64,000 nt of DNA. It comes from Tetradesmus obliquus. Lineage: Eukaryota; Chlorophyta; Chlorophyceae; Sphaeropleales; Scenedesmaceae. Positions within the stretch are counted from its first letter, which is position 1. Every line of letters begins with the position of its first letter. The stretch spans positions 1,355,501 through 1,419,500 of the forward strand of contig CP126204.1 in NCBI GenBank assembly GCA_030272155.1. The letters run 5' to 3'. The notes under the pieces are model-generated. The model made no database searches and was not told the origin of the DNA. It saw only the letters and a list, made by a program, of their open reading frames with translations. Of this stretch, positions 19,688 through 64,000 are shown piece by piece. The position numbers and the translations under genes were made by a program.

Positions 19688-19794
19688 CAGCAAGAAAGTT
19701 ACAAGGGCTGACCAAGTAACTGCGCACTTGCTCCATAAAGGGATCCATTGAGAGGATGACGCAACCTGTTGTGCACTCACTGCAGAACGTCCGG
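19688..19794 (-). mobile_element. Diverged LINE 3'-end fragment at the cluster edge
   Basis: About 105 bp matching the last part of the LINE 3' UTR (GCAAGAAAGTTACAAGGG, then CTTGCTCCATAAA). It differs from the consensus at many more positions than copies further in and has no poly(T) run. It begins about 145 bp after the AsnRS stop codon and looks like the oldest copy in the window. Confidence 0.75.
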
Positions 19795-20406
19795 GATAAA
19801 ATAGTCCGGTTCACAGACACCCTTGCCAACCCGCATCCTGCCCCCATGACATTCGTACGGCTTCAAATTTGATAAACCAACTTTTTACAAAGAGATAAAA
19901 CAATGAATTAACTTTCACGAAGCACACCCAGCACATTTCCATAATGGGCCACGAGGAAAAAAAAATGGGCCACGAGGCGGGCCGGAGCGAAAATTCAACC
20001 GTCGCGGCGCATCGAAGGTCGCTGCGCTTACTTTCGTTTGTCAGTCCCAGGCATGTGAGGGCCTAACATGCTTGGTCATGGAACGTCCGGGATAAAATCG
20101 TCCAGTAGGAATTTTAGCCGGCTAGTGAGTTTCCAGTGGCGGTTCACAGACACCCGTGCCAACCCGCATCCTGCCCCCACGACATTCGTACGGCTTCAAA
20201 TTTAATAAATCAACATTTTACAAAGAGATAAAACAATGAATAAACTTTCACGAAGCACACCCAGCACATTTCCATAATGGGCCACGAGGAAAAACAAATG
20301 GGCCACGAGGCGGGCCGGAGCGAAAATTCAACCGTCGCGGCGCATCAAAGGTCGCTGCGCTTACTTTCGTTTGTCAGTCCCAGGCATGTGAGGGCCTAAC
20401 ATGCTT

Positions 20407-20441
<35 letters not shown>

Positions 20442-20629
20442 GAAGCAAGAACGTTACAAGGGCGGACCTAAATAACCGTGCACTTGCTCCATAAAAAGAT
20501 CCATTGAGAGAATGAGGCAACATGCTTGGTCATGGAACGTCCGGGATAAAATCGTCCAGTAGGAATTTTAGCCGGCCACGAGGAAATAAAAAATGGGCCA
20601 CGAGGCGGGCCGTAGTGAAAATTCAACCG
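19795..20629 (+). repeat. ~333-bp satellite, about 2.3 units, interrupted by a LINE fragment
   Basis: Units begin at GAACGTCCGGGATAAAAT: 19795 (about 40 bp shorter near its start), 20081 and 20535. Unit 2 is 333 bp once the insertion at 20410-20518 is removed. Unit 3 is internally deleted and runs straight from GCCGGC to CCACGAGG. Recurrent internal strings are TGGGCCACGAGG, GGTCGCTGCGCTTA and AGGCATGTGAGGGCCTAACA. No coding potential is evident. Confidence 0.8.
20410..20518 (-). mobile_element. Short LINE 3' insertion in the satellite, TSD AACATGCTTGGT
   Basis: A run of 31 T followed by 78 bp of the LINE 3' end. The flanks are 12-bp direct repeats AACATGCTTGGT at 20398-20409 and 20519-20530. 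This is a classic 5'-truncated target-primed insertion into satellite unit 2. Confidence 0.9.
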
Positions 20630-21242
20630 TTTTTCATGGAGCAAGTGCACAGTTATTTAGGTCAGCCCTTGTAACGTTCTTGCTTCAAGAAAAAAAAACG
20701 TTCTTGCTTCAAGAAAAAAAAAATGAATAGTCAGGTGGGGATTGTCTGTGTCGACAATCCGTCACCTATTATTAGGCGTCTTGTGTAGGTGTCGTAATGC
20801 TGCCTGTAAAGTGCAGCTTTTAGAGGTGTGCAAGTCACCATTCTTTTTTTTTGAAGCAAGAACGTTACAAGGGCTGACCTAAATAACTGTGCACTTGCTC
20901 CATAAAAAGATCCATTGCAAGTCACCATGCAGTGATAGCTGACGGTTACGCCATGGACAGATTTTGTTTCAAGGGCCAATCACGGTCTGTCACACATCAC
21001 AGGACGTCATTGCGCGACTGTGATTTTAGTGGAGTCTGGGCACTCGGTCAGGTCCTGGATGCCTTTCGGGGCTGCTCCGCACGGGGCTGTCTGCATGATC
21101 GTGTGACAGCGTCTCTTGGTACAAGAGACCTGTGGGGTGAGTGCGGAACAGGTTGCCTCACTCTCTCTATGGATCTTTTTATGGAGCAAGTGCACAGTTA
21201 TTTAGGTCAGCCCTTGTAACGATCTTGCTTCAAAAAAAAAAA
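20630..21242 (+). mobile_element. LINE 3'-UTR copies, one with a nested insertion
   Basis: A 3'-terminal fragment (20630-20722) ends in a duplicated tail, CGTTCTTGCTTCAAG plus A-run, twice. It is followed by a ~450-bp 3'-UTR copy ending in poly(A) at 21232-21242. The second copy is split by a 74-bp antisense insertion at 20842-20915. The same arrangement recurs at 29.5-30.5 kb and 31.3-31.9 kb. Confidence 0.8.
20842..20915 (-). mobile_element. 74-bp LINE 3' insertion, TSD TGCAAGTCACCAT
   Basis: T-run plus ~63 bp of LINE 3' end, flanked by TGCAAGTCACCAT at 20829-20841 and 20916-20928. Identical-site insertions at 30077-30150, 31545-31618 and 40134-40205 show that the whole block was duplicated after this one insertion. 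Confidence 0.9.
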
Positions 21243-21565
21243 CCGCATGCTGCCCCAACGACATTCGTACGGCTTCAAAATTGATGAATCAACATTTTAC
21301 AAAGAGATTAAACAATGAATAAACTTGTACGAAGCACACCCAGCACATTTCCATCATGGGCCACGAGGCGGGCCGGAGCGAAAACACAACCGTCGCGGCG
21401 CATCGAAGGTCGCTGCGCTTATTTTCGTATGTCAGTCCCAGGCATGTGAGGGCCTAACATGCTTGGTCATGGAACGTCCGGGATAAAATCGTCCAGTAGG
21501 AATTTTAGCCGGCCACGAGGAAATAAAAAATGGGCCACGAGGCGGGCCGTAGTGAAAATTCAACC

Positions 21566-21566: not shown

Positions 21567-21607
<41 letters not shown>

Positions 21608-23326
21608 AAGCAAGAACGTTACAAGGGCTGACCTAAATAACTGTGCACTTGCTCCATAAAAAGATCCATTGAGAGAGTGAGGCAACCTGTTCCGCACTCA
21701 CTCCACAGGTCTCTTGTACCAAGAGACGCTGTCACACGATCATGCAGACAGCCCCTTGCGGAGCAGCCCCGAAAGGCATCCAGGACCTGACCGAGTGCCC
21801 AGACTCCACTAAAATCACAGTCGCGCAATGACGTCCTGTGATGTGTGACAGACCGTGACTGGCCCTTGAATCAAAATCCGTCCATGGCGCAACTGTCAGC
21901 TATCACTGCATGGTGACTTGTACACCTCTACAAGCTGCACTTTACAGGCAGCATTACGACACCTACACAAGACGCCTATTAATAGGTGACGGATTGTCGA
22001 CACAGACAATCCCCACCTGACTATTCATTGACTCTCCACTTCATGCAAAGCACATCCTGCTACTGACCGAACATACACCTATGAGATATGTGGCATTCTG
22101 CAGGAAATGACACCAAATCAGGCACACAAAGCCACACACACACAAACTTATCCACACATGCTGCCCACATCCTCGTACTGTGCTACCCACACGCACGCAT
22201 ACATAACGTACTCTGCTACCCACTCACATGCATACATAACGTATCCCGGCCATCAACTTAGCCTTTGCCATACTATTTTGCAACACATCACAACGAGGAA
22301 CGACGGCCACTACTCCAACGAATGCATTGTACACCCTGCCCGAACCGTCAAAACAGACCACCCCGCCTCGTAGACCCGTGCCCAATCCATCCCTCACATG
22401 CCAGCCGCGCTGGCCCGAACCTTGATGCGACCATCTGCGCCCATCCTATACAGTGCTCCCCACTTCTGCTCAAAGTCAACAAGTTTGATCTCAGGCGACC
22501 TTCCCTGCAGCCATGCAAACGGTATCCCACAACCTATCCTAACATCTACTTCCACCCTATCCCACTCCCTCTGAATTTGCTGCCGCAGCTCTGCCAGAAA
22601 CCTACACGCCACAGCCTTAGCAGCGTATGATGAGCTGCCCGGCTCGCCAGTTGTACCCCGTTGACTGCCCATGCTGCTGCTGTTGCTGCTGCTGCCCTCT
22701 GCATCGCTGATGCCGTGGCTCTGAGATTGAGAATTGCTGCCTGCATTGTGGCTGCCGCTGCCATCGCTGCCATCGGCACTGGGCACAGTCACGCCAGCCC
22801 TGATGCTGCTGCAGCGCACCACCCAAATGGACTCCAGCAGCAGCAGACGCAGCTGCGTCCACATCTGCTGCTGCCCTGCTGGCGGCGCCCACACACTGAA
22901 GTCATCCAGCAGCAGCAGACGGCTGTTATTAACAGGGACCACTGCTCCGGGCTGCACACGCTGCCACACCTGTTGCGCGTACCACTGCCACGCTGCTGCA
23001 GCTACAGGGCACTCCACTAACAAGTGGGTGAGGGTCTCCAGTTGCTGCGGCTGCTGGCACTGCTGGGCTGGGCAGGTAAAGTGAGCCGGCGCGTGCCTGC
23101 TGGATGCCAGCATGCGCCGTGCGCCTACCTTCACTCCTGCATGCAGAAGCCGCCAGCCAAACACTCGCAGCCGCCTCGGCAGCTGGGTGTCTTTCAGCCG
23201 TTGATAACTCGCCACCCAGCGGTGCTGCCTGGCATTGGCAGCACCCATGGAGTGAGTGATCGGGTCCAGTAGATCATTGTGTGCTGGGCAGCTGATGCGC
23301 TGCTGTTGCTGCTCCTGTTGCTGCCG
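21567..23326 (-). mobile_element. LINE copy, 3' UTR plus C-terminal ORF (tandem unit 1)
   Basis: Poly(T) 21567-21606, then 3' UTR, then the last ~285 codons of the LINE ORF (stop near 22394). The coding part includes the zinc-binding domain (LRVFGWRLLHAGVK, CPAQQC, THLLVECPVAAAAWQWY). It is cut off after CTGCCG, where a second near-identical unit begins 1,748 bp downstream. Confidence 0.85.
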
Positions 23327-25609
23327 TTTTTTTTTTTTTTTTTTTTTTTTTTTTGAAGCAAGAACGTTACAAGGGCTGACCTAAATAACTGTGCACTTGC
23401 TCCATAAAAAGATCCATTGAGAGAGTGAGGCAACCTGTTCCGCACTCACTCCACAGGTCTCTTGTACCAAGAGACGCTGTCACACGATCATGCAGACAGC
23501 CCCTTGCGGAGCAGCCCCGAAAGGCATCCAGGACCTGACCGAGTGCCCAGACTCCACTAAAATCACAGTCGCGCAATGACGTCCTGTGATGTGTGACAGA
23601 CCGTGACTGGCCCTTGAATCAAAATCCGTCCATGGCGCAACTGTCAGCTATCACTGCATGGTGACTTGTACACCTCTACAAGCTGCACTTTACAGGCAGC
23701 ATTACGACACCTACACAAGACGCCTATTAATAGGTGACGGATTGTCGACACAGACAATCCCCACCTGACTATTCATTGACTCTCCACTTCATGCAAAGCA
23801 CATCCTGCTACTGACCGAACATACACCTATGAGATATGTGGCATTCTGCAGGAAATGACACCAAATCAGGCACACAAAGCCACACACACACAAACTTATC
23901 CACACATGCTGCCCACATCCTCGTACTGTGCTACCCACACGCACGCATACATAACGTACTCTGCTACCCACTCACATGCATACATAACGTATCCCGGCCA
24001 TCAACTTAGCCTTTGCCATACTATTTTGCAACACATCACAACGAGGAACGACGGCCACTACTCCAACGAATGCATTGTACACCCTGCCCGAACCGTCAAA
24101 ACAGACCACCCCGCCTCGTAGACCCGTGCCCAATCCATCCCTCACATGCCAGCCGCGCTGGCCCGAACCTTGATGCGACCATCTGCGCCCATCCTATACA
24201 GTGCTCCCCACTTCTGCTCAAAGTCAACAAGTTTGATCTCAGGCGACCTTCCCTGCAGCCATGCAAACGGTATCCCACAACCTATCCTAACATCTACTTC
24301 CACCCTATCCCACTCCCTCTGAATTTGCTGCCGCAGCTCTGCCAGAAACCTACACGCCACAGCCTTAGCAGCGTATGATGAGCTGCCCGGCTCGCCAGTT
24401 GTACCCCGTTGACTGCCCATGCTGCTGCTGTTGCTGCTGCTGCCCTCTGCATCGCTGATGCCGTGGCTCTGAGATTGAGAATTGCTGCCTGCATTGTGGC
24501 TGCCGCTGCCATCGCTGCCATCGGCACTGGGCACAGTCACGCCAGCCCTGATGCTGCTGCAGCGCACCACCCAAATGGACTCCAGCAGCAGCAGACGCAG
24601 CTGCGTCCACATCTGCTGCTGCCCTGCTGGCGGCGCCCACACACTGAAGTCATCCAGCAGCAGCAGACGGCTGTTATTAACAGGGACCACTGCTCCGGGC
24701 TGCACACGCTGCCACACCTGTTGCGCGTACCACTGCCACGCTGCTGCAGCTACAGGGCACTCCACTAACAAGTGGGTGAGGGTCTCCAGTTGCTGCGGCT
24801 GCTGGCACTGCTGGGCTGGGCAGGTAAAGTGAGCCGGCGCGTGCCTGCTGGATGCCAGCATGCGCCGTGCGCCTACCTTCACTCCTGCATGCAGAAGCCG
24901 CCAGCCAAACACTCGCAGCCGCCTCGGCAGCTGGGTGTCTTTCAGCCGTTGATAACTCGCCACCCAGCGGTGCTGCCTGGCATTGGCAGCACCCATGGAG
25001 TGAGTGATCGGGTCCAGTAGATCATTGTGTGCTGGGCAGCTGATGCGCTGCTGTTGCTGCTCCTGTTGCTGCCGTTGAGCCGTGACTACTGCTGCTGCTG
25101 TTGCCGCGCGCTGTCTTGGCAGCTCCCGCTCCCTGGACGGATCCATCCAGGACGCATGGTAAGCTGCCATCATAGCTGCGTCGCTAAACCGCTGGCTGAA
25201 AAAAAAAAAAAAAAAAAAAAAAAAAACCGCTGGCTGCCACTGCTGCTGCTGCTGCGATTGCCAGGCGCCTCGCTACTTTGCTGCATTTGCTGGAAGGACC
25301 GTTTCTGAGCTGCCTCCATCTCCTGCAAGCCGTCCTGTGGCGCCTCAGCACCCAGGCGGTTGCGCCACAGGCGCGGGCGCATGCCGACACCTGATACCCA
25401 TCCCTCTTTGCACTGCCGACTGCATTGCTCCTGCAGCAGCCTGCATGTTGCCACCTTTGGCGTGAACTGCAGCAAGCTGACAGCAAACCCCATCCCCCAT
25501 ACACTAGGGTCAACGCGAATGTCTGCCCAAGCCCCCACCAGGTACCATGACGGCGTGCTTCGCGATTGCTGCTGCTGCTGCTGTTGCTGGTGCTGTCCTT
25601 GGTGCTGCT

Positions 25610-25610
<1 letters not shown>
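23327..25610 (-). mobile_element. LINE copy (tandem unit 2), longer at its 5' side
   Basis: Poly(T) 23327-23354, 3' UTR, then ORF from the stop at 24142 up to the start of the Gln-rich linker. Its first ~1.75 kb repeats unit 1. It then continues past CCGTTGAGCC, where unit 1 stops. The coding frame is broken only by the pure poly(A) insertion at 25199-25226. Confidence 0.85.
25199..25226 (+). mobile_element. Poly(A)-only insertion with target-site duplication
   Basis: A run of about 26-28 A interrupts LINE coding sequence. It is flanked on both sides by ACCGCTGGCTG (25188-25198 and about 25226-25236). Uninterrupted copies have this string once. It is best explained as a target-primed insertion truncated down to its tail. 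Confidence 0.8.
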
Positions 25611-25650
<40 letters not shown>

Positions 25651-25871: not shown

Positions 25872-25903
<32 letters not shown>

Positions 25904-28114
25904 AAGCAAGAACGTTACAAGGGCGGACCTAAATAACCGTGCACTTGCTCCATAAAAAGATCCATTGAGAGAATGAGGCAACCTGTTCCGCACTCACTCC
26001 ACAGGTCTCTTGTACCAAGAGACGCTGTCACACGATCATGCAGACAGCCCCTTGCGGAGCAGCCCCGAAAGGCATCCAGGACCTGACCGAGTGCCCAGAC
26101 TCCACTAAACTCACAGTCGCGCAATGACGTCCTGTGATGCGTGACAGACCGTGACTGGCCCTTGAAACAAAAACTGTCAGCATAGTGTAACTGTTATCTA
26201 TCGCTGCATGGTGACTTGCACACCTCTAAAAGCTGCACTTTACAGGCAGCATTACGACACCTACACAAGACGCCTATTAATAGGTGACGGATTGTCGACA
26301 CAGACAATCCCCACCTGACTATTCATAGACTCTCCACTTCATGCAAAGCACATCCTGCTACTGACCGAACACACCCCTATGAGATATGTGGCATTCTGTA
26401 GGAAATGACACCACCTCAGGCACACAAAGCCACACACACACAAACTTATCCACACATGCTGCACACATCCTCGTACTCTGCTACCCACACGCACGCATAC
26501 ATAACGTACTCTGCTACCCACTCACATGCATACATAACGTATCCCGGCCATCAACTTAGCCTTTGCCATACTATTTTGCAACACATCACAACGAGGAACG
26601 ACGGCCACTACTCCAACGAATGCATTGTACACCCTGCCCGAACCGTCAAGACAGACCACCACGCCTCGTAGACCCGTGCCCAATCCATCCCTCACATGCC
26701 CGCCGCGCTGGCCCGAACCTTGACGCGCCCATTTGCGCCCATCCTATACAGTGCTCCCCACTTCTGCTCAAAGTCAACAAGTTTGATCTCAGGCGACCTT
26801 CCCTGCAGCCATGCAAACGGTATCCCACAACCTATCCTAACATCTACTTCCACCCTATCCCACTCCCTCTGAATTTGCTGCCGCAGCTCTGCCAGAAACC
26901 TACACGCCACAGCCTTAGCAGCGTATGATGAGCTGCCCGGCTCGCCAGTTGTACCCCGTTGACTGCCCATGCTGCTGCTGTTGCTGCTGCTGTCCTCTGC
27001 ATCGCTGATGCCGTGGCTCTGAGATTGAGAATTGCTGCCTGCATTGCGGCTGCCGCTGCCATCGCTGCCATCTGCACTGGCCACAATCACGCCAGGCCTG
27101 ATGCTGCTGCAACGCACCACCCAAATGGACTCCAGCAGCAGCAGACGCAGCTGCGTCCACATCTGCTGCTGTCCTGCTGGCGGCGCCCACACACTGAAGT
27201 CATCCAGCAGCAGCAGACGGCTGTTATTAACAGGGACCACTGCTCCGGGCTGCACACGCTGCCACACCTTTTGCGCGTACCACTGCCACGCTGCTGCAGC
27301 TACAGGGCACTCCACTAACAAGTGGGTGAGGGTCTCCAGTTGCTGCGGCTGCTGGCACTGCTGTGCTGGGCAGGTAAAGTGAGCCGGCGCGTGCCTGCTG
27401 GATGCCAGCATGCGCCGTGCGCCTACCTTCACTCCTGCATGCAGAAGCCGCCAGCCAAAACCTCGCAGCCGCCTCGGCAGCTGGGTGTCTTTTAGCCGCT
27501 GATAACTCGCCACCCAGCGGTGCTGCCTGGCATTGGCAGCACCCATGGAGTGAGTGATCGGGTCCAGTAGATCATTGTGTGCTGGGCAGCTGATGCGCTG
27601 TTGTTGCTGCTCCTGTTGCTGCCGTTGAGCCGTGACTACTGCTGCTGCTGTTGCCGCGCGCTGTCTTGGCAGCTCCCGCTCCCTGGACGGATCCATCCAG
27701 GACGCATGGTAAGCCGCCATCATAGCTGCGCCGCTAAACCGCTGGCTGCCACTGCTGCTGCTGCTACGATTGCCAGGCGCCTCGCTATTTTGCTGCATTT
27801 GCTGGAAGGACCGTTTCTGAGCTGCCTCCATCTCCTGCAAGCCGTCCTGTGGCGCCTCAGCACCCAGGCGGTTGCGCCAAAGGCGCGGGCGCATGCCGAC
27901 ACCTGATACCCATCCCTCTTTGCACTGCCGACTGCATTGCTCCTGCAGCAGCCTGCATGTTGCCACCTTTGGCGTGAACTGCAGCAAGCTGACAGCAAAC
28001 CCCATCCCCCATACACTAGGATCTACACGAATGTCTGCCCAAGCCCCCACCAGGTACCATGACGGCGTGCTTCGCGATTGCTGCTGCTGCTGCTGTTGCT
28101 GGTGTTGTCCTTGG

Positions 28115-28160
<46 letters not shown>

Positions 28161-28769
28161 CCTGGTGGTGCTGCTGCTGCTGCTGCTGCTGCCGTTCCTG
28201 TTGTCGTGGCTGCCGCTGTTGCCGTGCTGCTGGCTGCTGCCGCTGTTGCTGCTGCTGCTGCCGCTGCTGCCGCTGTGAATCATTCTACTCTCATGTACTG
28301 AAAACATCTAACCAGGAATGCTATACAGAGCCGGAGAGCGGTGCAGCAAGTGATTGCCTTCCCTGGTGCTGTTGCCGCTGCTGCTGCTGCTGCTGCTGCT
28401 GTCACTGGCACGCCCAGCTCAGCTGCAGGCAAGCTCTCCAGCGCAGCTCACGAACGTAATTCGCCATGCAGAAACAGTAGGTCCAGCTGGTGAAGGGTCC
28501 TTGCTGCTCCAGCGTGCCACAGAGCTGTTACCGCAAGGGCAGAGCTGTCGAAAGACCGTATGCCCAGCTGCGGCTACTCCAGCGCCTCTATACCATTTCG
28601 ATGTAACGGATATAGCTTATATAGCTTATATTTTGCGATGAAACGCTTACCTACGGAATTCAGTATCATTCGAAACGGCCTTGTTGACTACGTGTGTGTG
28701 TTGCCTATTCAATCGATTCATTACTACTATTACTATTACTATGCCGCAATGCAGTGCATAAAGAAAGTG
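25872..28769 (-). mobile_element. LINE copy with both 3' end and 5'-UTR-like end but lacking EN and RT
   Basis: Poly(T) 25872-25902, 3' UTR, ORF C-terminal part (stop at 26692, open to 28050) and the CAG-encoded Gln-rich tract (28080-28275). It then jumps to a region (about 28445-28750) that matches, in antisense, the sequence upstream of the long ORF at 40.28-40.57 kb. Endonuclease and reverse transcriptase are missing, so this is an internally deleted copy that still keeps both ends. The breakpoint lies at CAG-rich sequence. Confidence 0.75.
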
Positions 28770-30460: not shown

Positions 30461-30604
30461 TCGTGTGACAGCGTCTCTTGGTACAAGAGACCTGTGGGGT
30501 GAGTGCGGAACAGGTTGCCTCACTCTCTCTATGGATCTTTTTATGGAGCAAGTGCACAGTTATTTAGGTCAGCCCTTGTAACGATCTTGCTTCAAAAAAA
30601 AAAA
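30461..30604 (+). mobile_element. 144-bp LINE 3'-end fragment
   Basis: Begins abruptly at TCGTGTGACAGCG directly after the previous poly(A) and ends in 11 A at 30594-30604. It carries the GTAACGATCTTGC variant of the terminus. Confidence 0.8.
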
Positions 30605-31331
30605 CCGCATGCTGCCCCAACGACATTCGTACGGCTTCAAAATTGATGAATCAACATTTTACAAAGAGATTAAACAATGAATAAACTTGTACGAAGCACA
30701 CCCAGCACATTTCCATCATGGGCCACGAGGCGGGCCGGAGCGAAAACTCAACCGTCGCGGCGCATCGAAGGTCGCTGCGCTTATTTTCGTATGTCAGTCC
30801 CAGGCATGTGAGGGCCTAACATGCTTGGTCATGGAACGTCCGGGATAAAATCGTCCAGTAGGAATTTTAGCCGGCCAGTGAGTTTCCAGTGGCGGTTCAC
30901 AGACACCCTTGCCAACCCGCATCCTGCCCCCATGACATTCGTACGGCTTCAAATTTGATAAATCAACCTTTTACAAAGAGAGAAAACAATGAATAAACTT
31001 TCACGAAGCACACCCAGCACATTTTCATCATGGGCCACGAGGGGGGCCGGAGCGAAACTTCAATCATCGCGGCGCATCAAAGGTCGCTGCGCTTATTTTT
31101 TTTTTTTATTTTTGAAGCAAGAACGTTACAAGGGCTGACCTAAATAACTGTGCACTTGCTCCATAAAAAGATCCATTGCTGCGCTTATTTTCGTATGTCA
31201 GTCCCAGGCATGTGAGGGCCTAACATGCTTGGTCATGGAACGTCCGGGATAAAATCGTCCAGTAGGAATTTTAGCCGGCCACGAGGAAATAAAAAATGGG
31301 CCACGAGGCGGGCCGTAGTGAAAATTCAACC
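30605..31331 (+). repeat. Satellite block with a LINE 3' insertion
   Basis: About two satellite units in tandem; unit starts GAACGTCCGGGATAAAAT at about 30835 and 31237. They are interrupted at 31098-31177 by an 80-bp antisense LINE 3' fragment with target duplication GCTGCGCTTATT (31086-31097, 31178-31189). The block ends in the internally deleted unit form before the next LINE copy. Confidence 0.8.
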
Positions 31332-31946
31332 TTTTTTCATGGAGCAAGTGCACAGTTATTTAGGTCAGCCCTTGTAACGTTCTTGCTTCAAGAAAAAAAA
31401 ACGTTCTTGCTTCAAGAAAAAAAAAATGAATAGTCAGGTGGGGATTGTCTGTGTCGACAATCCGTCACCTATTATTAGGCGTCTTGTGTAGGTGTCGTAA
31501 TGCTGCCTGTAAAGTGCAGCTTTTAGAGGTGTGCAAGTCACCATTTTTTTTTTTTGAAGCAAGAACGTTACAAGGGCTGACCTAAATAACTGTGCACTTG
31601 CTCCATAAAAAGATCCATTGCAAGTCACCATGCAGTGATAGCTGACGGTTACGCCATGGACAGATTTTGTTTCAAGGGCCAATCACGGTCTGTCACACAT
31701 CACAGGACGTCATTGCGCGACTGTGATTTTAGTGGAGTCTGGGCACTCGGTCAGGTCCTGGATGCCTTTCGGGGCTGCTCCGCACGGGGCTGTCTGCATG
31801 ATCGTGTGACAGCGTCTCTTGGTACAAGAGACCTGTGGGGTGAGTGCGGAACAGGTTGCCTCACTCTCTCTATGGATCTTTTTATGGAGCAAGTGCACAG
31901 TTATTTAGGTCAGCCCTTGTAACGATCTTGCTTCAAAAAAAAAAAA
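31332..31946 (+). mobile_element. LINE 3'-UTR copy with nested 74-bp insertion
   Basis: Near-copy of 20630-21242, including the duplicated tail motif, the antisense insertion at 31545-31618 (target duplication TGCAAGTCACCAT at 31532-31544 and 31619-31631) and the GTAACGATCTTGC terminus with poly(A) 31935-31946. The offset from the first block is 10,703 bp. Confidence 0.85.
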
Positions 31947-33180: not shown

Positions 33181-33222
<42 letters not shown>

Positions 33223-49076: not shown

Positions 49077-49083
<7 letters not shown>

Positions 49084-49107
<24 letters not shown>

Positions 49108-51302: not shown

Positions 51303-51412
51303 CGCCTATTAATAGGTGACGGATTGTCGACACAGACAATCCCCACCTGACTATTCATTGACTCTCCACTTCATGCAAAGCACATCCTGCTACTGACCGT
51401 CATTAATAGGCG

Positions 51413-51453
<41 letters not shown>

Positions 51454-52236
51454 AAGCAAGAACGTTACAAGGGCGGACCTAAATAACTGTGCACTTGCTC
51501 CATAAAAAGATCCATTGAGAGAATGAGGCAACCTGTTCCGCACTCACTCCACAGGTCTCTTGTACCAAGAGACGCTGTCACACGATCTTGCAGACAGCCC
51601 CTTGCGGAGCAGCCCCGAAAGGCATCCAGGACCTGACCGAGTGCCCAGACTCCACTAAAATCACAGTCGCGCAATGACGTCCTGTGATGTGTGACAGACC
51701 GTGACTGGCCCTTGAAACAAAAACTGTCAGCATAGTGTAACTGTTATCTATCGCTGCATGGTGACTTGCACACCTCTAAAAGCTGCACTTTACAGGCAGC
51801 ATTACGACACCTACACAAGACGCCTATTAATAGGTGACGGATTGTCGACACAGACAATCCCCACCTGACTATTCATAGACTCTCCACTTCATGCAAAGCA
51901 CATCCTGCTACTGACCGAACACACCCCTATGAGATATGTGGCATTCTGTAGGAAATGACACCACCTCAGGCACACAAAGCCACACACACACAAACTTATC
52001 CACACATGCTGCACACATCCTCGTACTCTGCTACCCACACGCACGCATACATAACGTACTCTGCTACCCACTCACATGCATACATAACGTATCCCGGCCA
52101 TCAACTTAGCCTTTGCCATACTATTTTGCAACACATCACAACGAGGAACGACGGCCACTACTCCAACGAATGCATTGTACACCCTGCCCATTAATAGGCG
52201 TCTTGTGTAGGTGTCGTAATGCTGCCTGTAAAGTGC

Positions 52237-52267
<31 letters not shown>

Positions 52268-54450
52268 TGAAGCAAGAACGTTACAAGGGCGGACCTAAAT
52301 AACCGTGCACTTGCTCCATAAAAAGATCCATTGAGAGAATGAGGCAACCTGTTCCGCACTCACTCCACAGGTCTCTTGTACCAAGAGACGCTGTCACACG
52401 ATCATGCAGACAGCCCCTTGCGGAGCAGCCCCGAAAGGCATCCAGGACCTGACCGAGTGCCCAGACTCCACTAAAATCACAGTCGCGCAATGACGTCCTG
52501 TGATGCGTGACAGACCGTGACTGGCCCTTGAAACAAAAACTGTCAGCATAGTGTAAATGTTATCTATCGCTGCATGGTGACTTGCACACCTCTAAAAGCT
52601 GCACTTTACAGGCAGCATTACGACACCTACACAAGACGCCTATTAATAGGTGACGGATTGTCGACACAGACAATCCCCACCTGACTATTCATAGACTCTC
52701 CACTTCATGCAAAGCACATCCTGCTACTGACCGAACACACCCCTATGAGATATGTGGCATTCTGTAGGAAATGACACCACCTCAGGCACACAAAGCCACA
52801 CACACACAAACTTATCCACACATGCTGCACACATCCTCGTACTCTGCTACCCACACGCACGCATACATAACGTACTCTGCTACCCACTCACATGCATACA
52901 TAACGTATTTTTTTTTTTTTTTTTTTTTTTTTTGAAGCAAGAACGTTACAAGGGCTGACCTAAATAACTGTGCATACATAACGTATCCCGGCCATCAACT
53001 TAGCCTTTGCCATACTATTTTGCAACACATCACAACGAGGAACGACGGCCACTACTCCAACGAATGCATTGTACACCCTGCCCGAACCGTCAAGACAGAC
53101 CACCACGCCTCGTAGACGAAGTGCAGCTTTTAGAGGTGTGCAAGTCACCATGCAGCGATAGATAACAGTTACACTATGCTGACAGTTTTTGTTTCAAGGG
53201 CCAGTCACGGTCTGTCACACATCACAGGACGTCATTGCGCGACTGTGATTTTAGTGGAGTCTGGGCACTCGATCAGGTCCTGGATGCCTTTCGGGGCTGC
53301 TCCGCAAGGGGCTGTCTGCATGATCGTGTGACAGCGTCTCTTGGTACAAGAGACCTGTGGAGTGAGTGCGGAACAGGTTGCCTCATTCTCTCAATGGATC
53401 TTTTTATGGAGCAAGTGCACGGTTATTTAGGTCCGCCCTTGTAACGTTCTTGCTTCAAAAAAAAAAAAAAAAAAAAAAAAAAAATTCATCGCGGCGCATC
53501 AAAGGTCGCTGCGCTTATTTTTTTTTTTTTTTGAAGCAAGAACGTTACAAGGGCTGACCTAAATAACTGTGCACTTGCTCCATAAAAAGATCCATTGCTG
53601 CGCTTATTTTCGTATGTCAGTCCCAGGCATGTGAGGGCCTAACATGCTTGGTCATGGAACGTCCGGGATAAAATCGTCCAGTAGGAATTTAAGCCGGCCA
53701 GTGAGTTTCCAGTGGCGGTTCACAGACACCCTTGCCAACCCGCATCCTGCCCCCATGACATTCGTACGGCTTCAATTTTGATAAATCAACCTTTTACAAA
53801 GAGATAAAACATTGAATAAACTTTCACGAAGCTTACCCAGCACATTTCCATAATGGGCCACATCATAACAGTTGCACTATGCTGACAGTTTTTGTTTCAA
53901 GGGCCAGTCACGGTCTGTCACACATCACAGGACGTCATTGCGCGACTGTGATTTTAGTGGAGTCTGGGCACTCGGTCAGGTCCTGGATGCCTTTCGGGGC
54001 TGCTCCGCAAGGGGCTGTCTGCATGATCGTGTGACAGCGTCTCTTGGTACAAGAGACCTGTGGAGTGAGTGCGGAACAGGTTGCCTCATTCTCTCAATGG
54101 ATCTTTTTATGGAGCAAGTGCACGGTTATTTAGGTCCGCCCTTGTAACGTTCTTGCTTCAAAAAAAAAAAAAAAAAAAAAAAAAATGGGCCACATCACAG
54201 GACGTCATTGCGCGACTGTGATTTTAGTGGAGTCTGGGCACTCGGTCAGGTCCTGGATGCCTTTCGGGGCTGCTCCGCAAGGGGCTGTCTGCATGATCGT
54301 GTGACAGCGTCTCTTGGTACAAGAGACCTGTGGAGTGAGTGCGGAACAGGTTGCCTCACTCTCTCAATGGATCTTTTTATGGAGCAAGTGCACAGTTATT
54401 TAGGTCAGCCCTTGTAACGATCTTGCTTCAAAAAAAAAAAAAAAAAAAAA
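51301..54450. repeat. Second unit of a ~3.16-kb tandem duplication of nested LINEs
   Basis: Repeats 48141-51300 in the same order. It holds the end of the first-hit insertion, the second-hit insertion (T-run from 51415), the insertion at the AAGTGCAGCTTTT site with its nested copy (about 52908-52973), the host 3' UTR, the satellite block with its insertion (53520-53596), and two LINE 3' fragments. Poly(A)/poly(T) lengths vary slightly between units (shift 3,155-3,161 bp). The last fragment differs: GGCACTCGG and GTAACGATCTTGC instead of the unit-1 variants. Confidence 0.85.
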
Positions 54451-55331: not shown

Positions 55332-56057
55332 TTTTTTTTTTTTTTTTTTTTTTTTTTGAAGCAAGAACGTTACAAGGGCCGACCTAAATAACCGTGCACT
55401 TGCTCCATAAAAAGATCCATTGAGAGAATGAGGCAACCTGTTCCGCACTCACTCCACAGGTCTCTTGTACCAAGAGACGCTGTCACACGATCATGCAGAC
55501 AGCCCCTTGCGGAGCAGCCCCGAAAGGCATCCAGGACCTGACCGAGTGCCCAGACTCCACTAAAATCACAGTCGCGCAATGACGTCCTGTGATGTGTGAC
55601 AGACCGTGACTGGCCCTTGAAACAAAAACTGTCAGCATAGTGTAACTGTTATCTATCGCTGCATGGTGACTTGCACACCTCTAAAAGCTGCACTTTACAG
55701 GCAGCATTACGACACCTACACAAGACGCCTATTAATAGGTGACGGATTGTCGACACAGACAATCCCCACCTGACTATTCATAGACTCTCCACTTCATGCA
55801 AAGCACATCCTGCTACTGACCGAACATACACCTATGAGATATGTGGCATTCTGTAGGAAATGACACCACCTCAGGCACACAAAGCCACACACACACAAAC
55901 TAATCCACACATGCTGCACACATCCTCGTACACTGCTACCCACACGCACGCATACATAACGTACTCTGCTACCCACTCACATGCATACATAACGTATCCC
56001 GGCCATCAACTTAGCCTTTGCCATACTATTTTGCAACACATCACAACGAGGAACGAC
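55332..56057 (-). mobile_element. LINE 3'-UTR copy, head-to-head with the next block
   Basis: Poly(T) 55332-55357, then most of the 3' UTR to AACGAGGAACGAC. There it meets sense RT sequence of the following copy (TGCTGGCAGGCACACAGGG). This inverted junction has no poly(A) or obvious target duplication. Confidence 0.8.
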
Positions 56058-57702
56058 TGCTGGCAGGCACACAGGGCCGCATCGTGTTCAACGGCGGCCA
56101 CCTCAGCAGGGTTTTTGACATCCCCTCTGGCTGCGCGCAGGGCAGCCCACTCAGCCCGCTGCTGTATGTGCTAGCAGCGCAGCCGCTGGCGGCCAAATGC
56201 AGAGCGCTGCAAGCAGCAGGGGAGGTGGACAGCATCAGCATGCCCGATGGCTCAGCAGCACCCTGCAGCATGCAGCATGCAGACGACACCACCCTGCACG
56301 CCGCCAGCAGGCAAGGCGTTGCTGTGCTGGTGAGGAAAGCAGTACAGCCGTTTTGTGCAGCGAGTGGCGCAAAGCTGGGAGTCAGCAAGTGCCAGGGCAT
56401 GGAAGTAGGCACGCAGCAGCCGTTTGTAGGGGTAGATCCAGCCACGCAGATACCGTTCCATGATACAGCACTACACCCGATCAGGCACCTGGGTCTGCTG
56501 CTGTCAGCAGCAGGCGCAGAGCCGCATGCAGCAGCGCTGTACACGCAGCGCCTGCAAACCATCACATACCGGGCGCGGCAGTGGGCACGGCAGAATCTCA
56601 GCTATTTGGGGCGCTGCGCAGTTGCGCAGCAGATGATGGCATCTTGCATCACCTATCATGCGCAGTTCGTGCCAGTCCCAGTAGATATCATGGCCAGGAT
56701 GCACCGCCGCCTCTTAGGGTTTGTGACAGAGCAGGGCTGCGCTCGAGAAGCCAACATCCGGCAGTGGAATGAAAGCCCTCCGGCAGCAGTGGCCAGCCTG
56801 CCTTTCAGCATGGGCGGAATGAGGCAGGTTGATGTCAGGGCGCACGCCACAGCAATGCAGGCACGTACAGCAGCAGCATTGCTGTCGCCGCGGCGAGCCC
56901 CGTGGAAGGCCTTCATGCGGGCCAACCTGCGCCATGCACTGCCAGGACTAGGGGAGGCAGCGTTGGTGCAGCGCTCAAAGGCGCCGCTGCAGGCTGCCGC
57001 CAGGGGCGGCAGGCTGCCGCTGCGCCTATCAGCATACATAGAGGCGCTGCAAAGCGTGGGCATTCACAGGCACGTGGAGCACAGCGCCATGACCAGCCAG
57101 CAGGTCCAGCTTGAGCTGCTAGTGGGGAACCACAGCGTGGGCAGCAGCTCAGATGGGCAGATGTTGGCAGCAGCCGGTGCCCTCCCTGCTCAGCTGCGCC
57201 ACGGCGCAGGCACCACACTGGGGCAGGTGCAGCAGCAGCTAACTGGACAGCCGCAGCAAGATGGCATTGTGCTGCCGCCGGCATGGCTGCGCACTCTGCG
57301 GGAGGGCAGCACAGGTGCATGGCAGACCGACACGCAGCAACAGTGGGCACAACAGTTGCAGCACGGTGGCACCACCAAGTGCTACAAGGTGCAGCAGGAT
57401 GGCAGCTTGAAGGCCACAACAGCTGTCCTAATGGACACAGCAGCCCTCCAATGGGCGCCATGTTGTGTGGTAGATGTAACAGCAGTGCCGCACCCTGCAT
57501 TTCAGCGGCAACAACAGCAGCGGCAGCAGCAGCAGCAGCAGCGGCAGCAGCCAGCAGCACGGCAACAGCGGCAGCCACGACAGCAGCAACAACAGGAACG
57601 TCAGCAGCAGCAGCCGCAGCAGCCAGCTGCATGGCAACAGCAGCAGCCGCGACAACAGCAACAACAGGAACGGCAGCAGCAGCAGCAGCAGCAGCACCAG
57701 GG

Positions 57703-57747
<45 letters not shown>

Positions 57748-60687
57748 CCAAGGACAGCACCAGCAACAGCAGCAGCAGCAGCAATCGCGAAGCACGCCGT
57801 CATGGTACCTGGTGGGGGCTTGGGCAGACATTCGCGTAGACCCTAGTGTATGGGGGATGGGGTTTGCTGTCAGCTTGCTGCAGTTCACGCCAAAGGTGGC
57901 AACATGCAGGCTGCTGCAGGAGCAATGCAGTCGGCAGTGCAAAGAGGGATGGGTATCAGGTGTCGGCATGCGCCCGCGCCTGTGGCGCAACCGCCTGGGT
58001 GCTGAGGCGCCACAGGACGGCTTGCAGGAGATGGAGGCAGCTCAGAAACGGTCCTTCCAGCAAATGCAGCAAAGTAGCGAGGCGCCTGGCAATCGCAGCA
58101 GCAGCAGCAGTGGCAGCCAGCGGTTTAGCGACGCAGCTATGATGGCAGCTTACCATGCGTCCTGGATGGATCCGTCCAGGGAGCGGGAGCTGCCAAGACA
58201 GCGCGCGGCAACAGCAGCAGCAGTAGTCACGGCTCAACGGCAGCAACAGGAGCAGCAACAGCAGCGCATCAGCTGCCCAGCACACAATGATCTACTGGAC
58301 CCGATCACTCACTCCATGGGTGCTGCCAATGCCAGGCAGCACCGCTGGGTGGCGAGTTATCAACGGCTGAAAGACACCCAGCTGCCGAGGCGGCTGCGAG
58401 TGTTTGGCTGGCGGCTTCTGCATGCAGGAGTGAAGGTAGGCGCACGGCGCATGCTGGCATCCAGCAGGCACGCGCCGGCTCACTTTACCTGCCCAGCCCA
58501 GCAGTGCCAGCAGCCGCAGCAACTGGAGACCCTCACCCACTTGTTAGTGGAGTGCCCTGTAGCTGCAGCAGCGTGGCAGTGGTACGCGCAACAGGTGTGG
58601 CAGCGTGTGCAGCCCGGAGCAGTGGTCCCTGTTAATAACAGCCGTCTGCTGCTGCTGGATGACTTCAGTGTGTGGGCGCCGCCAGCAGGGCAGCAGCAGA
58701 TGTGGACGCAGCTGCGTCTGCTGCTGCTGGAGTCCATTTGGGTGGTGCGCTGCAGCAGCATCAGGGCTGGCGTGACTGTGCCCAGTGCCGATGGCAGCGA
58801 TGGCAGCGGCAGCCACAATGCAGGCAGCAATTCTCAATCTCAGAGCCACGGCATCAGCGATGCAGAGGGCAGCAGCAGCAGCAGCAGCAGCATGGGCAGT
58901 CAACGGGGTACAGCTGGCGAGCCGGGCAGCTCATCATACGCTGCTAAGGCTGTGGCGTGTAGGTTTCTGGCAGAGCTGCGGCAGCAAATTCAGAGGGAGT
59001 GGGATAGGGTGGAAGTAGATGTTAGGATAGGTTGTGGGATACCGTTTGCATGGCTGCAGGGAAGGTCGCCTGAGATCAAACTTGTTGACATCCCCTCTGG
59101 CTGCGCGCAGGGCAGCCCACTCAGCCCGCTGCTGTATGTGCTAGCAGCGCAGCCGCTGGCGGCCAAATGCAGAGCGCTGCAAGCAGCAGGGGAAGTGGAC
59201 AGCATCAGCATGCCCGAGGGCTCAGCAGCACCCTGCAGCATGCAGCATGCAGACGACACCACCCTGCACGCCGCCAGCAGGCAAGGCGTTGCTGTGCTGG
59301 TGAGGAAAGCAGTACAGCCGTTTTGTGCAGCGAGTGGCGCCAAGCTGGGAGTCAGCAAGTGCCAGGGCATGGAAGTGGGCACGCAGCAGCCGTTTGTAGG
59401 GGTAGATCCAGCCACGCAGATACCGTTCCATGATACAGCACTACACCCGATCAGGCACCTGGGTCTGCTGCTGTCAGCAGCAGGCGCAGAGCCGCATGCA
59501 GCAGCGCTGTACACGCAGCGCCTGCAAACCATCACATACCGGGCGCGGCAGTGGGCACGGCAGAATCTCAGCTATTTGGGGCGCTGCGCAGTTGCGCAGC
59601 AGATGATGGCATCTTGCATCACCTATCATGCGCAGTTCGTGCCAGTCCCAGTAGATATCATGGCCAGGATGCACCGCCGCCTCTTGGGGTTTGTGACAGA
59701 GCAGGGCTGCGCTCGAGAAGCCAACATCCGGCAGTGGAATGAAAGCCCTCCGGCAGCAGTGGCCAGCCTGCCTTTCAGCATGGGCGGAATGAGGCAGGTT
59801 GATGTCAGGGCGCACGCCACAGCAATGCAGGCACGTACAGCAGCAGCATTGCTGTCGCCGCGGCGAGCCCCATGGAAGGCCTTCATGCGGGCCAACCTGC
59901 GCCACGCACTGCCAGGACTAGGGGAGGCAGCGTTGGTGCAGCGATCAAAGGCGCCGCTGCAGGCTGCCGCCAGGGGCGGCAGGCTGCCGCTGCGCCTATC
60001 AGCATACATAGAGGCGCTGCAAAGCGTGGGCATTCACAGGCACGTCGAGCACAGCGCCATGACCAGCCAGCAGATCCAGCTTGAGCTGCTAGTGGGGAAC
60101 CACAGCGTGGGCAGCAGCTCAGATGGGCAGATGTTGGCAGCAGCCGGTGCCCTCCCTGCTCAGCTGCGCCACGGCGCAGGCACCACACTGGGGCAGGTGC
60201 AGCAGCAGCTAACTGGACAGCCGCAGCAAGATGGCATTGTGCTGCCGCCGGCATGGCTGCACACTCTGCGGGAGGGCAGCATAGGTGCATGGCAGACCGA
60301 CACGCAGCAACAGTGGGCACAACAGTTGCAGCACGATGGCACCACCAAGTGCTACAAGGTGCAGCAGGATGGCAGCTTGAAGGCCACAACAGCTGTCCTA
60401 ATGGACACAGCAGCCCTCCAATGGGCGCCATGTTGTGTGGTAGATGTAACAGCAGTGCCGCACCCTGCATTTCAGCGGCAACAACAGCAGCGGCAGCAGC
60501 GGCAGCAGCAGCAGCAACAGCGGCAGCAGCCAGCAGCACGGCAACAGCGGCAGCCACGACAGCAGCAACAACAGGAACGTCAGCAGCAGCAGCTGCAGCA
60601 GCCAGCTGCATGGCAACAGCAACAGCCGCGACAGCAGCAACAACAGGAACGGCAGCAGCAGCAGCAGCAGCAGCAGCACCACCAGGG

Positions 60688-60732
<45 letters not shown>

Positions 60733-62152
60733 CCAAGGACAGCACCCGCAACAGCAGCAGCAGCAGCAGCAATCGCGAAGCACGCCGTCATGGTACCTGG
60801 TGGGGGCTTGGGCAGACATTCGCGTAGATCCTAGTGTATGGGGGATGGGGTTTGCTGTCAGCTTGCTGCAGTTCACGCCAAAGGTGGCAACATGCAGGCT
60901 GCTGCAGGAGCAATGCAGTCGGCAGTGCAAAGAGGGATGGGTATCAGGTGTCGGCATGCGCCCGCGCCTGTGGCGCAACCGCCTGGGTGCTGAGGCGCCA
61001 CAGGACGGCTTGCAGGAGATGGAGGCAGCTCAGAAACGGTCCTTCCAGCAAATGCAGCAAAATAGCGAGGCGCCTGGCAATCGTAGCAGCAGCAGCAGTG
61101 GCAGCCAGCGGTTTAGCGACGCAGCTATGATGGCGGCTTACCATGCGTCCTGGATGGATCCGTCCAGGGAGCGGGAGCTGCCAAGACAGCGCGCGGCAAC
61201 AGCAGCAGCAGTAGTCACAGCTCAACGGCAGCAACAGGAGCAGCAACAGCAGCGCATCAGCTGCCCAGCACACAATGATCTACTGGACCCGATCACTCAC
61301 TCCATGGGTGCTGCCAATGCCAGGCAGCACCGCTGGGTGGCGAGTTATCAGCGGCTAAAAGACACCCAGCTGCCGAGGCGGCTGCGAGTGTTTGGCTGGC
61401 GGCTTCTGCATGCAGGAGTGAAGGTAGGCGCACGGCGCATGCTGGCATCCAGCAGACACGCGCCGGCTCACTTTACCTGCCCAGCACAGCAGTGCCAGCA
61501 GCCGCAGCAACTGGAGACCCTCACCCACTTGTTAGTGGAGTGCCCTGTAGCTGCAGCAGCGTGGCAGTGGTACGCGCAACAGGTGTGGCAGCGTGTGCAG
61601 CCCGGAGCAGTGGTCCCTGTTAATAACAGCCGTCTGCTGCTGCTGGATGACTTCAGTGTGTGGGCCCCGCCAGCAGGGCAGCAGCAGATGTGGACGCAGC
61701 TGCGTCTGCTGCTGCTGGAGTCCATTTGGGTGGTGCGTTGCAGCAGCATCAGGCCTGGCGTGATTGTGGCCAGTGCAGATGGCAGCGATGGCAGCGGCAG
61801 CCGCAATGCAGGCAACAATTCTCAATCTCAGAGCCACGGCATCAGCGATGCAGAGGACAGCAGAAGCAGCAGCATGGGCAGGCAACGGGGTACAACTGGC
61901 GAGCCGGGCAGCTCATCATACGCTGCTAAGGCTGTGGCGTGTAGGTTTCTGGCAGAGCTGCGGCAGCAAATTCAGAGGGAGTGGGATAGGGTGGAAGTAG
62001 ATGTTAGGATAGGTTGTGGGATACCGTTTGCATGGCTGCAGGGAAGGTCGCCTGAGATCAAACTTGTTGACTTTGAGCAGAAGTGGGGAGCACTGTATAG
62101 GATGGGCGCAAATGGGCGCATCAAGGTTCGGGCCAGCGCGGCTGGCATGTGA
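56018..62152 (+). CDS. LINE double-unit fusion ORF (2044 codons)
   Basis: The first ~13 codons are antisense 3' UTR of the neighbouring copy, so this ATG is not a natural start. The element coding sequence begins at LLAGTQGRIVFNGGHLSRVF. Order: RT motif B (GCAQGSPLSP), motif C (QHADDTT), thumb, Gln-rich linker, WYLVGAWADIRVDPSVWG segment, zinc-binding region, then again from IPSGCAQGSPLSP the same series, ending VRASAAGM. RT motif A (FLDFEKAYD in the 40-kb copy) is missing from both units, so catalysis is unlikely. The frame stays open through about 6 kb because the duplicated unit is a multiple of three and little decay has occurred. Confidence 0.6.
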
Positions 62153-62966
62153 GGGATGGATTGGGCACGGGTCTACGAGGCGTGGTGGTCTGTTTTGACG
62201 GTTCGGGCGGGGGGTACAATGCATTCGTTGGAGTAGTGGCCGTCGTTCCTCGTTGTGATGTGTTGCAAAATAGTATGGCAAAGGATAAGCTGATGGCCGG
62301 GATACGTTATGTATGCATGTGAGTGGGTAGCAGAGTACGTTATGTATGCGTGCGTGTGGGTAGCAGTGTACGAGGATGTGTGCAGCATGTGTGGATTAGT
62401 TTGTGTGTGTGTGGCTTTGTGTGCCTGAGGTGGTGTCATTTCCTACAGAATGCCACATATCTCATAGGTGTATGTTCGGTCAGTAGCAGGGTGTGCTTTG
62501 CATGAAGTGGAGAGTCAATGAATAGTCAGGTGGGGATTGTCTGTGTCGACAATCCGTCACCTATTAATAGGCGTCTTGTGTAGGTGTCGTAATGCTGCCT
62601 GTAAAGTGCAGCTTGTAGAGGTGTACAAGTCACCATGCAGTGATAGCTGACAGTTACGCCATGGACAGATTTTGTTTCAAGGGCCAGTCACGGTCTGTCA
62701 CACATCACAGGACGTCATTGCGCGACTGTGATTTTAGTGGAGTCTGGGCACTCGGTCAGGTCCTGGATGCCTTTCGGGGCTGCTCCGCAAGGGGCTGTCT
62801 GCATGATCGTGTGACAGCGTCTCTTGGTACAAGAGACCTGTGGAGTGAGTGCGGAACAGGTTGCCTCATTCTCTCAATGGATCTTTTTATGGAGCAAGTG
62901 CACAGTTATTTAGGTCCGCCCTTGTAACGTTCTTGCTTCAAAAAAAAAAAAAAAAAAAAAAAAAAA
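56058..62966 (+). mobile_element. Long LINE block, RT mid-domain through two fused ORF units to poly(A)
   Basis: Starts inside RT just before motif B and runs through a Gln-rich linker and zinc-binding region. It fuses at TTGAC to a second RT C-terminal half, linker and zinc-binding region (stop 62150-62152), then 3' UTR and poly(A) 62941-62966. From about 57313 onward it is a near-identical copy of 32789 onward, offset 24,525 bp. Confidence 0.88.
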
Positions 62967-63843
62967 CTTGTTGACTTTGAGCAGAAGTGGGGAGCACTGT
63001 ATAGGATGGGCGCAGATGGGCGCATCAAGGTTCGGGCCAGCGCGGCTGGCATGTGAGGGATGGATTGGGCACGGGTCTACGAGGCGGGGTGGTCTGTTTT
63101 GACGGTTCGGGCAGGGTGTACAATGCATTCGTTGGAGTAGTGGCCGTCGTTCCTCGTTGTGATGTGTTGCAAAATAGTATGGCAAAGGCTAAGTTGATGG
63201 CCGGGATACGTTATGTATGCATGTGAGTGGGTAGCAGAGTACGTTATGTATGCGTGCGTGTGGGTAGCACAGTACGAGGATGTGGGCAGCATGTGTGGAT
63301 AAGTTTGTGTGTGTGTGGCTTTGTGTGCCTGATTTGGTGTCATTTCCTGCAGAATGCCACATATCTCATAGGGGTGTGTTCGGTCAGTAGCAGGATGTGC
63401 TTTGCATGAAGTGGAGAGTCAATGAATAGTCAGGTGGGGATTGTCTGTGTCGACAATCCGTCACCTATTAATAGGCGTCTTGTGTAGGTGTCGTAATGCT
63501 GCCTGTAAAGTGCAGCTTTTAGAGGTGTACAAGTCACCATGCAGTGATAGCTGACAGTTACGCCATGGACAGATTTTGTTTCAAGGGCCAGTCACGGTCT
63601 GTCACACATCACAGGACGTCATTGCGCGACTGTGATTTTAGTGGAGTCTGGGCACTCGGTCAGGTCCTGGATGCCTTTCGAGGCTGCTCCGCAAGGGGCT
63701 GTCTGCATGATCGTGTGACAGCGTCTCTTGGTACAAGAGACCTGTGGGGTGAGTGCGGAACAGGTTGCCTCACTCTCTCAATGGATCATTTTATGGAGCA
63801 AGTGCACAGTTATTTAGGTCAGCCCTTGTAACGTTCTTGCTTC

Positions 63844-63871
<28 letters not shown>
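62967..63871 (+). mobile_element. 5'-truncated LINE copy
   Basis: Counterpart of 38455-39360: starts at CTTGTTGACTTTGAGC, stop codon, 3' UTR, poly(A) 63844-63871. It differs from its partner by a few bases and by tail lengths only. Confidence 0.85.
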
Positions 63872-63874
<3 letters not shown>

Positions 63875-64000
63875 GCCACATCACAGGACGTCATTGCGCG
63901 ACTGTGCTTTTAGTGGAGTCTGGGCACTCGGTCAGGTCCTGGATGCCTTTCGGGGCTGCTCCGCACGGGGCTGTCTGCATGATCGTGTGACAGCGTCTCT
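63872..64000 (+). mobile_element. LINE 3' fragment cut by the window end
   Basis: Counterpart of 39361-39489: TGGGCCAC then ATCACAGGACGTC and onward. It continues past the window, so the duplicated segment is longer than can be seen. Confidence 0.8.

Follow-up and report, generated by a model that had tools for sequence, protein, structure and literature searches.

The question raised by this locus is what kind of chromosomal region is represented by the block, built of a long interspersed nuclear element (LINE) and a 312-bp satellite, into which a 64,000-nucleotide stretch of the Tetradesmus obliquus genome passes. This stretch, C14:1,355,501-1,419,500, is referred to as the window; the genome comprises 104,662,953 bases in 17 contigs, and its assembly is near telomere-to-telomere. 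The block in the window very probably forms the left portion of C14's regional centromere, with roughly one such block per chromosome. This reading, advanced in the initial annotation for a nest of one LINE, is supported because a single internal cluster is present per contig and wide dispersal is not observed; the support is strong as to distribution and does not come from occupancy. The LINE-only picture drawn there is incomplete, as the 312-bp satellite underlies the clusters, and the centromere would therefore be of a different kind.

The distribution of the LINE was followed with three queries. The protein query for the C-terminal domain (143 of 143 candidates scored) yielded 133 matches, and 131 of these are confined to a single internal cluster on each of 16 of the 17 contigs; the other two are located at C5:4.666-4.668 Mb. 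When 133 hits are placed uniformly at random (500 trials), the best 200-kb window per contig collects a mean of 33 and a maximum of 40. With the reverse transcriptase query, 132 of 164 candidates were scored and 132 matches obtained, and the 43 with at least 81% identity are all found inside these clusters, on 13 contigs. Neither protein query reaches the C13 cluster (1.924-1.972 Mb), which is recognized from a match of the 3′ untranslated region (3′ UTR) at 1.970 Mb (40 of 619 candidates scored with this query) and from satellite at 1.964-1.972 Mb in which LINE 3′ ends are nested. Wide dispersal and several clusters per chromosome, either of which the initial annotation regarded as incompatible with a centromere, are not observed apart from a few strays, and the single cluster per chromosome that it expected of a chromosome-scale assembly is found on the 16 contigs and, via 3′ UTR and DNA, on C13. 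The blocks measure approximately 40-190 kb each and sum to about 1.58 Mb, or 1.5% of the genome.

The control was the L1 family that comes next in this genome, its reverse transcriptase being 33-40% identical to that of the cluster LINE. The control set consists of 65 of the 89 weaker reverse transcriptase rows (at least 64 bits), the 24 weaker rows being left out. This family is present on 14 contigs at several sites per contig, and one of its 65 matches (on C9) lies within a LINE block, as does one of the 24 left-out rows (C6:3,116,086). As a separate observation, another L1, whose reverse transcriptase is 36% identical, occurs in local runs at C8:1.465-1.537, C1:4.961-5.003, C1:7.98-8.06, and C5:5.07-5.12 Mb. 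Neighbouring copies there are separated by several kb, the 1,518-aa frame is unbroken in many of them, and the runs, which lie beyond the centromere blocks, are arrays of LINEs that are seemingly intact.

The positions of the clusters decide against a subtelomeric origin. CCCTAAA arrays open 16 of the 17 contig starts, and TTTAGGG is present at 8 of the 10 contig ends tested (7 ends are outside this sample), the two others, on C5 and C9, having no telomere repeat within their last 2 kb; the first 2 kb of C2 (C2:1-2000) consist of N. The telomere repeat is thus TTTAGGG here, whereas that of Chlamydomonas differs, being TTTTAGGG. This repeat of the present genome, the GC-rich frames rich in Q and A, and the L1 type of the LINE are in keeping with a green alga. 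In Chlorella, Zepp occurs at subtelomeres (cited in PMC3446292), and the clusters might be considered subtelomeric or telomere-repair products, as Zepp was first described. This explanation has a vanishingly small probability and is ruled out for this genome by cluster positions: all 17 clusters are internal, with centres at 0.30-0.87 of the contig and 0.57-4.5 Mb from its nearer end (at least 0.57 Mb in every case), and the telomere repeats stand at the contig ends tested. The C14 cluster lies 1.4 Mb from the nearer contig end, and no telomere repeat was seen within it, as the initial annotation had also noted.

In the window, the block begins at a sharp left edge, placed correctly in the initial annotation, where a degenerate, minus-oriented 3′ end of the LINE starts near 19,688 and gives way to satellite at 19,828; GC content is 0.584 to the left of the edge vs 0.542 to its right. 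The right limit of 64,000 proposed for the 44-kb block does not hold, as the cluster continues beyond the window and extends in whole over approximately C14:1,375,188-1,508,800, about 134 kb. The two parts of the window are as follows.

1-19,687, no strand: left flank beyond the cluster, GC 58% (from GC count and open frames).
19,688-64,000, no strand: left part (44 kb) of the C14 LINE-plus-satellite cluster; LINE at 85% identity or more covers 38,912 of 44,313 bp (88%).

The single open frame tested in the left flank has no Pfam match and no PDB match. A cluster composed of LINE only is ruled out, the gaps in LINE coverage being satellite (2,959 bp in the window); the description of one LINE inserted into itself is right in that a self-nesting LINE dominates and underrates the 312-bp satellite as second component.

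By its predicted domains, the element is an L1-type LINE with endonuclease and reverse transcriptase. Its copies are 5′-truncated and poly(A)-tailed, with homopolymer tails of 25-40 bases, and are arranged head to tail, inverted, or nested in one another; the coding part is GC-rich (62-63%). The LINE features of the window, as given by alignment, are listed below.

21,606-23,328, minus: 5′-truncated LINE copy.
23,354-25,612, minus: 5′-truncated LINE copy.
25,902-28,276, minus: 5′-truncated LINE copy.
32,790-38,441, plus: LINE segment, first copy of a duplication, 99.91% identical over 5,655 bp to 57,312-62,966.
40,394-46,242, plus: longest LINE copy of the window, 5′-truncated or interrupted at 40,394.
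48,242-51,292, no strand: unit 1 of a tandemly duplicated stretch (about 3.05 kb) with LINE and satellite pieces, 99.35% identical to unit 2 (3,059 bp).
51,399-54,450, no strand: unit 2 of the same tandem duplication.
57,312-62,966, plus: second copy of the 5,655-bp duplication.

The open frame of the longest copy (40,394-45,421) comprises the C-terminal part of an endonuclease region, the reverse transcriptase, a zinc-binding-like C-terminal region, and a Q-rich linker; it is followed by the 3′ UTR up to 46,211 and by poly(A) up to 46,242. The same frame reaches 1,898 aa on other contigs. RVT_1 is recognized with 101 bits (cut-off 29.6), while Exo_endo_phos, in a frame from another contig, scores 23.6 bits, slightly below its cut-off of 24.5, and zf-RVT is weak (23.5 bits, below the cut-off of 27.5). 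The nesting, poly(A) tails, and double orientation reported earlier are therefore borne out by the alignment, and the name Zepp-like is justified in terms of behaviour, since self-nesting, 5′ truncation, and a single cluster per chromosome are all observed.

Copy number does not increase through self-insertion only. Nested insertions are real, as first proposed, but part of the copies stems from segmental duplication, as evidenced by the 99.91% and 99.35% pairs, the former of which is a recent event. As a consequence of duplication, pieces of the LINE frame have been fused into long open frames (32,777-37,627, 1,616 aa; 56,015-62,152, 2,045 aa), which are a pitfall for gene prediction. CAG-rich LINE stretches also yield long Ala-rich frames on the minus strand, for example 35,358-36,305 and 43,128-44,093, most probably by chance.

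The second component of the block is a tandemly repeated satellite; its unit length is constant, and its sequence is homogenized on each chromosome but diverged from one chromosome to another. In the window, it is represented by the following stretches, all on the plus strand.

19,828-20,409, plus: satellite at the left edge, 1.7 units, 86-88% identical to the unit at 30,602; poly(A) stubs here lie between target duplications.
21,240-21,515, plus: partial unit (satellite comparison).
30,602-31,106, plus: reference unit (30,602-30,913) and part of the next (satellite comparison).
31,178-31,281, plus: satellite resuming past a 66-bp LINE 3′ end inserted at unit position ~173-193.
31,944-32,448, plus: unit and part of the next (satellite comparison).
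32,520-32,784, plus: satellite cut off at unit position 125, where the LINE copy of 32,790 interrupts it.
50,438-50,702, plus: same form as 32,520-32,784, inside the tandem duplication.
53,597-53,861, plus: same form as 32,520-32,784, inside the tandem duplication.

Twelve units from 5 contigs are 311-314 bp long at identities of 57-100%. Within a contig, identity is 96-100% on C14 (three units from core and right part; edge units, 86-88%), 97-98% on C13 and C3, and 98-100% on C7. Between contigs, it amounts to 91-93% for C14 and C3, 81-83% for C1 against these two, 75-81% for C13 against C14, C3, and C1, and 57-60% for C7 against all others; a profile of the other variants nevertheless recovers the C7 units with E ~1e-28. 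The satellite is present on 13 contigs (C1-C8, C10, C11, C13, C14, and C15). Among the matches listed, the C3 variant appears on C3, C10, and C6 (37 of 317 candidates scored), the C13 variant on C13, C15, and C1 (38 of 293), and the C7 variant on C7 and C5 (39 of 334). The C8 variant (20 of 328), the C11 piece (40 of 477), and the C4 piece (40 of 261) are each listed on their own contig alone. On C2 and C14, the satellite was read directly in the DNA, and the arrays of C4, C5, and C11 have a 311-bp spacing. Every satellite row among the matches listed lies in or beside the LINE block of its own contig (on C13, up to about 40 kb past the LINE). A conserved motif of the unit, with up to two mismatches, gives 1,115 + 1,353 = 2,468 matches, and its reversed control gives 0. 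On C10, the array is organized as a 1,706-bp higher-order repeat in 28 copies of single orientation with one irregular step. A 156-bp dimer within the unit was rejected, as half-against-half scores of 12-17 are below the shuffle maxima of 21-27 in four variants.

The largely chromosome-specific sequence of these arrays also bears on assembly quality. A single block per contig could be mimicked by repeats that were collapsed or misjoined and set down once in every scaffold; scaffolds often break at centromeres, some copies are 99.9% identical over as much as 5.7 kb, and the C2 contig opens with 2 kb of N. The other loci checked in this respect contain no N, and arrays that are chromosome-specific in sequence are unlike the outcome of random misplacement, so that an artefact is extremely unlikely.

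LINE and satellite contribute to the blocks in different proportions. Satellite makes up 4,901 of 5,000 bp at one sampled locus of C13 and 6,437 of 10,000 bp at another, and per 10,000 bp sampled it covers 5,284 bp on C7, 4,473 on C1, and 4,251 on C3; it accounts for about half of the sampled sequence on other contigs. At the right edge of C14 it covers 2,210 of 10,000 bp, the sampled locus being partly outside the block. A contest between satellite and retroelement can be followed from one chromosome to the next, from the LINE-dominated C14 to the satellite-dominated sampled part of C13. Of the 41 interruptions recognized with the satellite profile, 17 end in an overlap of 6-23 bp (10-23 bp in 16 of them), as target-primed insertion leaves; 2 of 41 show a 16-bp loss and 22 are compound, and several are copies of one event multiplied along with the array. 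The target duplications claimed in the initial annotation can also be read by eye, as in the 13-bp repeat at 19,944-19,956 and 19,965-19,977, which flanks a poly(A) stub of eight A.

It might be supposed that the satellite is itself a LINE by-product made from LINE 3′ ends, and some of the composite repeats around 20.4-21.2 and 30.0-32.5 kb are indeed made of LINE 3′ pieces. The 312-bp unit, however, has no match to the LINE reference and forms its own diverged families per contig, and where the LINE interrupts it, target duplications are present. The by-product origin is largely refuted and very unlikely; an origin from another transposon may apply.

The LINE itself falls into two lineages. 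Full-length C-terminal matches form two groups, 44 at 98-100% and 24 at 93-95% identity to the query. Lineage A is found on C2, C4, C6, C9, C10, C11, C14, and C15, and on C13 by its 3′ UTR, while lineage B is found on C1, C5, C7, C8, C16, and C17; C12 is mixed. Both lineages thus occur together on 1 of 15 contigs, vs a mean of 11.0 and a minimum of 5 in 5,000 shuffles, in which copies of the same contig are not independent. In copies covering most of the 3′ UTR, the lineages are 86-87% identical; shorter pieces from C1, C7, and C8 give 91-93%, and the A copies mostly give 95-100%, with two lower (86 and 89%). The reverse transcriptase is 100% identical across eight A contigs, and lineage A therefore moves between chromosomes, yet not onto B chromosomes.

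Among 42 histone matches, one set (C7:3,658,180-3,660,020) belongs to an intron-split H3 whose loop 1 is longer by one residue, whose Phe is replaced by Trp, and whose N terminus has diverged. Together with its H3 fold, these features are hallmarks of CENH3, and by them the gene is a CENH3-like candidate.

The following mechanism may account for these data. Each chromosome would possess one block of approximately 40-190 kb, the ground of which would be a 311-312-bp satellite, homogeneous per chromosome, diverged between chromosomes, and arranged in single or higher-order arrays. The L1-type LINE would enter the satellite and its own older copies by target-primed reverse transcription, giving rise to 5′-truncated, poly(A)-tailed nests, and unequal recombination would then multiply satellite and LINE jointly. 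The CENH3-like histone of this genome may occupy the blocks, CENH3 chromatin or the repeats may lead the LINE to them, and a nucleosome-scale constraint may lie behind the constant unit length. A more far-reaching proposal, for and against which the chances appear evenly balanced, is that these are true satellite-based chlorophyte centromeres. The CENH3 platform would be an ancient 312-bp family, near-private to each chromosome and kept at 311-312 bp down to 57% identity; the Zepp-like LINE would be a centromere-seeking parasite, with two lineages on different chromosome sets, as if each recognized its own kind of centromere.

Several observations weigh against a centromeric role of the blocks. 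Stray LINE copies exist, namely a nested pair at C5:4.665-4.669 Mb and a single copy at C13:3.171 Mb, and the 3′-UTR match at C10:3,370,828, 74 kb from its nearest neighbour, may be another; the C10 block length of 191 kb is an upper figure because this match is counted into it. The control L1 clusters locally too, the best 200-kb windows taking up 40 of its 65 matches. Among the matches listed, the satellite was not found on C9, C12, C16, and C17: the one 3.9-kb locus of C9 read, internal to the LINE, contains no satellite, and the listed C17 rows match just the LINE-derived part of the query. CENP-B boxes with up to two mismatches are absent from 4 of 5 variants, C7 having one 2-mismatch match, and 10-bp WW periodicity in the satellite is not above shuffles; neither feature is required. 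As to the C7 gene, its exon joins were set by eye on GT-AG, the nearest PDB chains (best 60 of 173) are ordinary H3, and C4 carries two more diverged H3-like genes.

The blocks could then be mere pericentromeric heterochromatin or a once-per-chromosome refuge of the LINE, with the CENH3 site nearby or elsewhere, perhaps short and unique. The centromere reading rests on distribution rather than on CENH3 occupancy, which leaves room for this explanation; on the other hand, the presence of one block on each contig, its satellite homogeneous and uniform in length, resembles what is seen in the centromere cores of many species. The LINE clusters of Chlamydomonas also coincide with mapped centromeres in what is available of PMC8226300, although short AT-rich centromere candidates have been proposed for Auxenochlorella in the accessible part of PMC12636532. 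On balance, this explanation is unlikely, and a centromeric nature of the blocks is preferred.

Centromeres of land plants and animals, such as those formed by CEN178 with ATHILA, CentC with CRM, or chromosome-specific alpha satellite, usually have units of 150-180 bp. The blocks are like them in their constant unit, chromosome-specific variants, higher-order repeats, and internal retroelements; they are unlike them in that the retroelements there are mostly of the LTR (long terminal repeat) type, units measure 150-180 bp, and arrays are far longer, whereas here a LINE and a 312-bp unit are found.

Comparison with green algae relies on the portions of the cited papers that are available. In Chlamydomonas reinhardtii, the L1 LINE ZeppL-1_cRei forms clusters, mostly of 3′ ends, at putative or mapped centromeres and is said to be absent elsewhere (PMC8226300, PMC10030371). 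Localized L1 LINE clusters and 17 chromosomes are common to both genomes, but the clusters of C. reinhardtii are LINE-dominated and span 252-480 kb, in contrast to blocks of about 40-190 kb built on a 312-bp satellite. Coccomyxa subellipsoidea carries nested Zepp in one mostly internal, probably centromeric cluster per chromosome (PMC3446292). Nesting and the single, mostly internal cluster are shared with it; its clusters differ in measuring 1.5-42.3 kb, in two being subtelomeric, and in that no satellite is mentioned in the available text (PMC3446292). In Chlorella sorokiniana and C. pyrenoidosa, centromeres were mapped with CENH3, and tandem satellites are stated to be absent in both (PMC11005252). 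The transposon-rich blocks and the CENH3-like gene described here recall the transposon-rich regional centromeres of C. sorokiniana (28-104 kb), while the presence of a satellite sets them apart from both Chlorella genomes.

Green-algal centromeres known so far have been summed up as transposon-enriched (PMC12636532, 2025), and plant satellites have been argued to arise later, from transposons (PMC11005252). Tandem repeats are described as scarce in seven basal plants, green algae included. For Chlorella centromeres, three "featured sequences" are spoken of (PMC12902096). In the open-licence literature, as far as its texts are available, no case of a satellite centromere in green algae was found, the described ones being transposon-rich without satellites. 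The new part is the chromosome-specific, fixed-length satellite beneath the LINE. If the satellite-based reading is true, satellite centromeres exist on the green-algal side as well. The small, fully assembled arrays (~40-190 kb) are on offer for studying satellite vs retroelement, and the centromere sequences, together with the CENH3 candidate, could be used for building algal minichromosomes.

Two further observations concern the histone genes. At C4:2,361,722-2,364,508, two adjacent H3-like genes are found, strongly diverged and with introns, lacking the Trp of the C7 gene. Most core-histone matches are located at C9:0.377-0.649 Mb, where several groups lie inside 270 kb.

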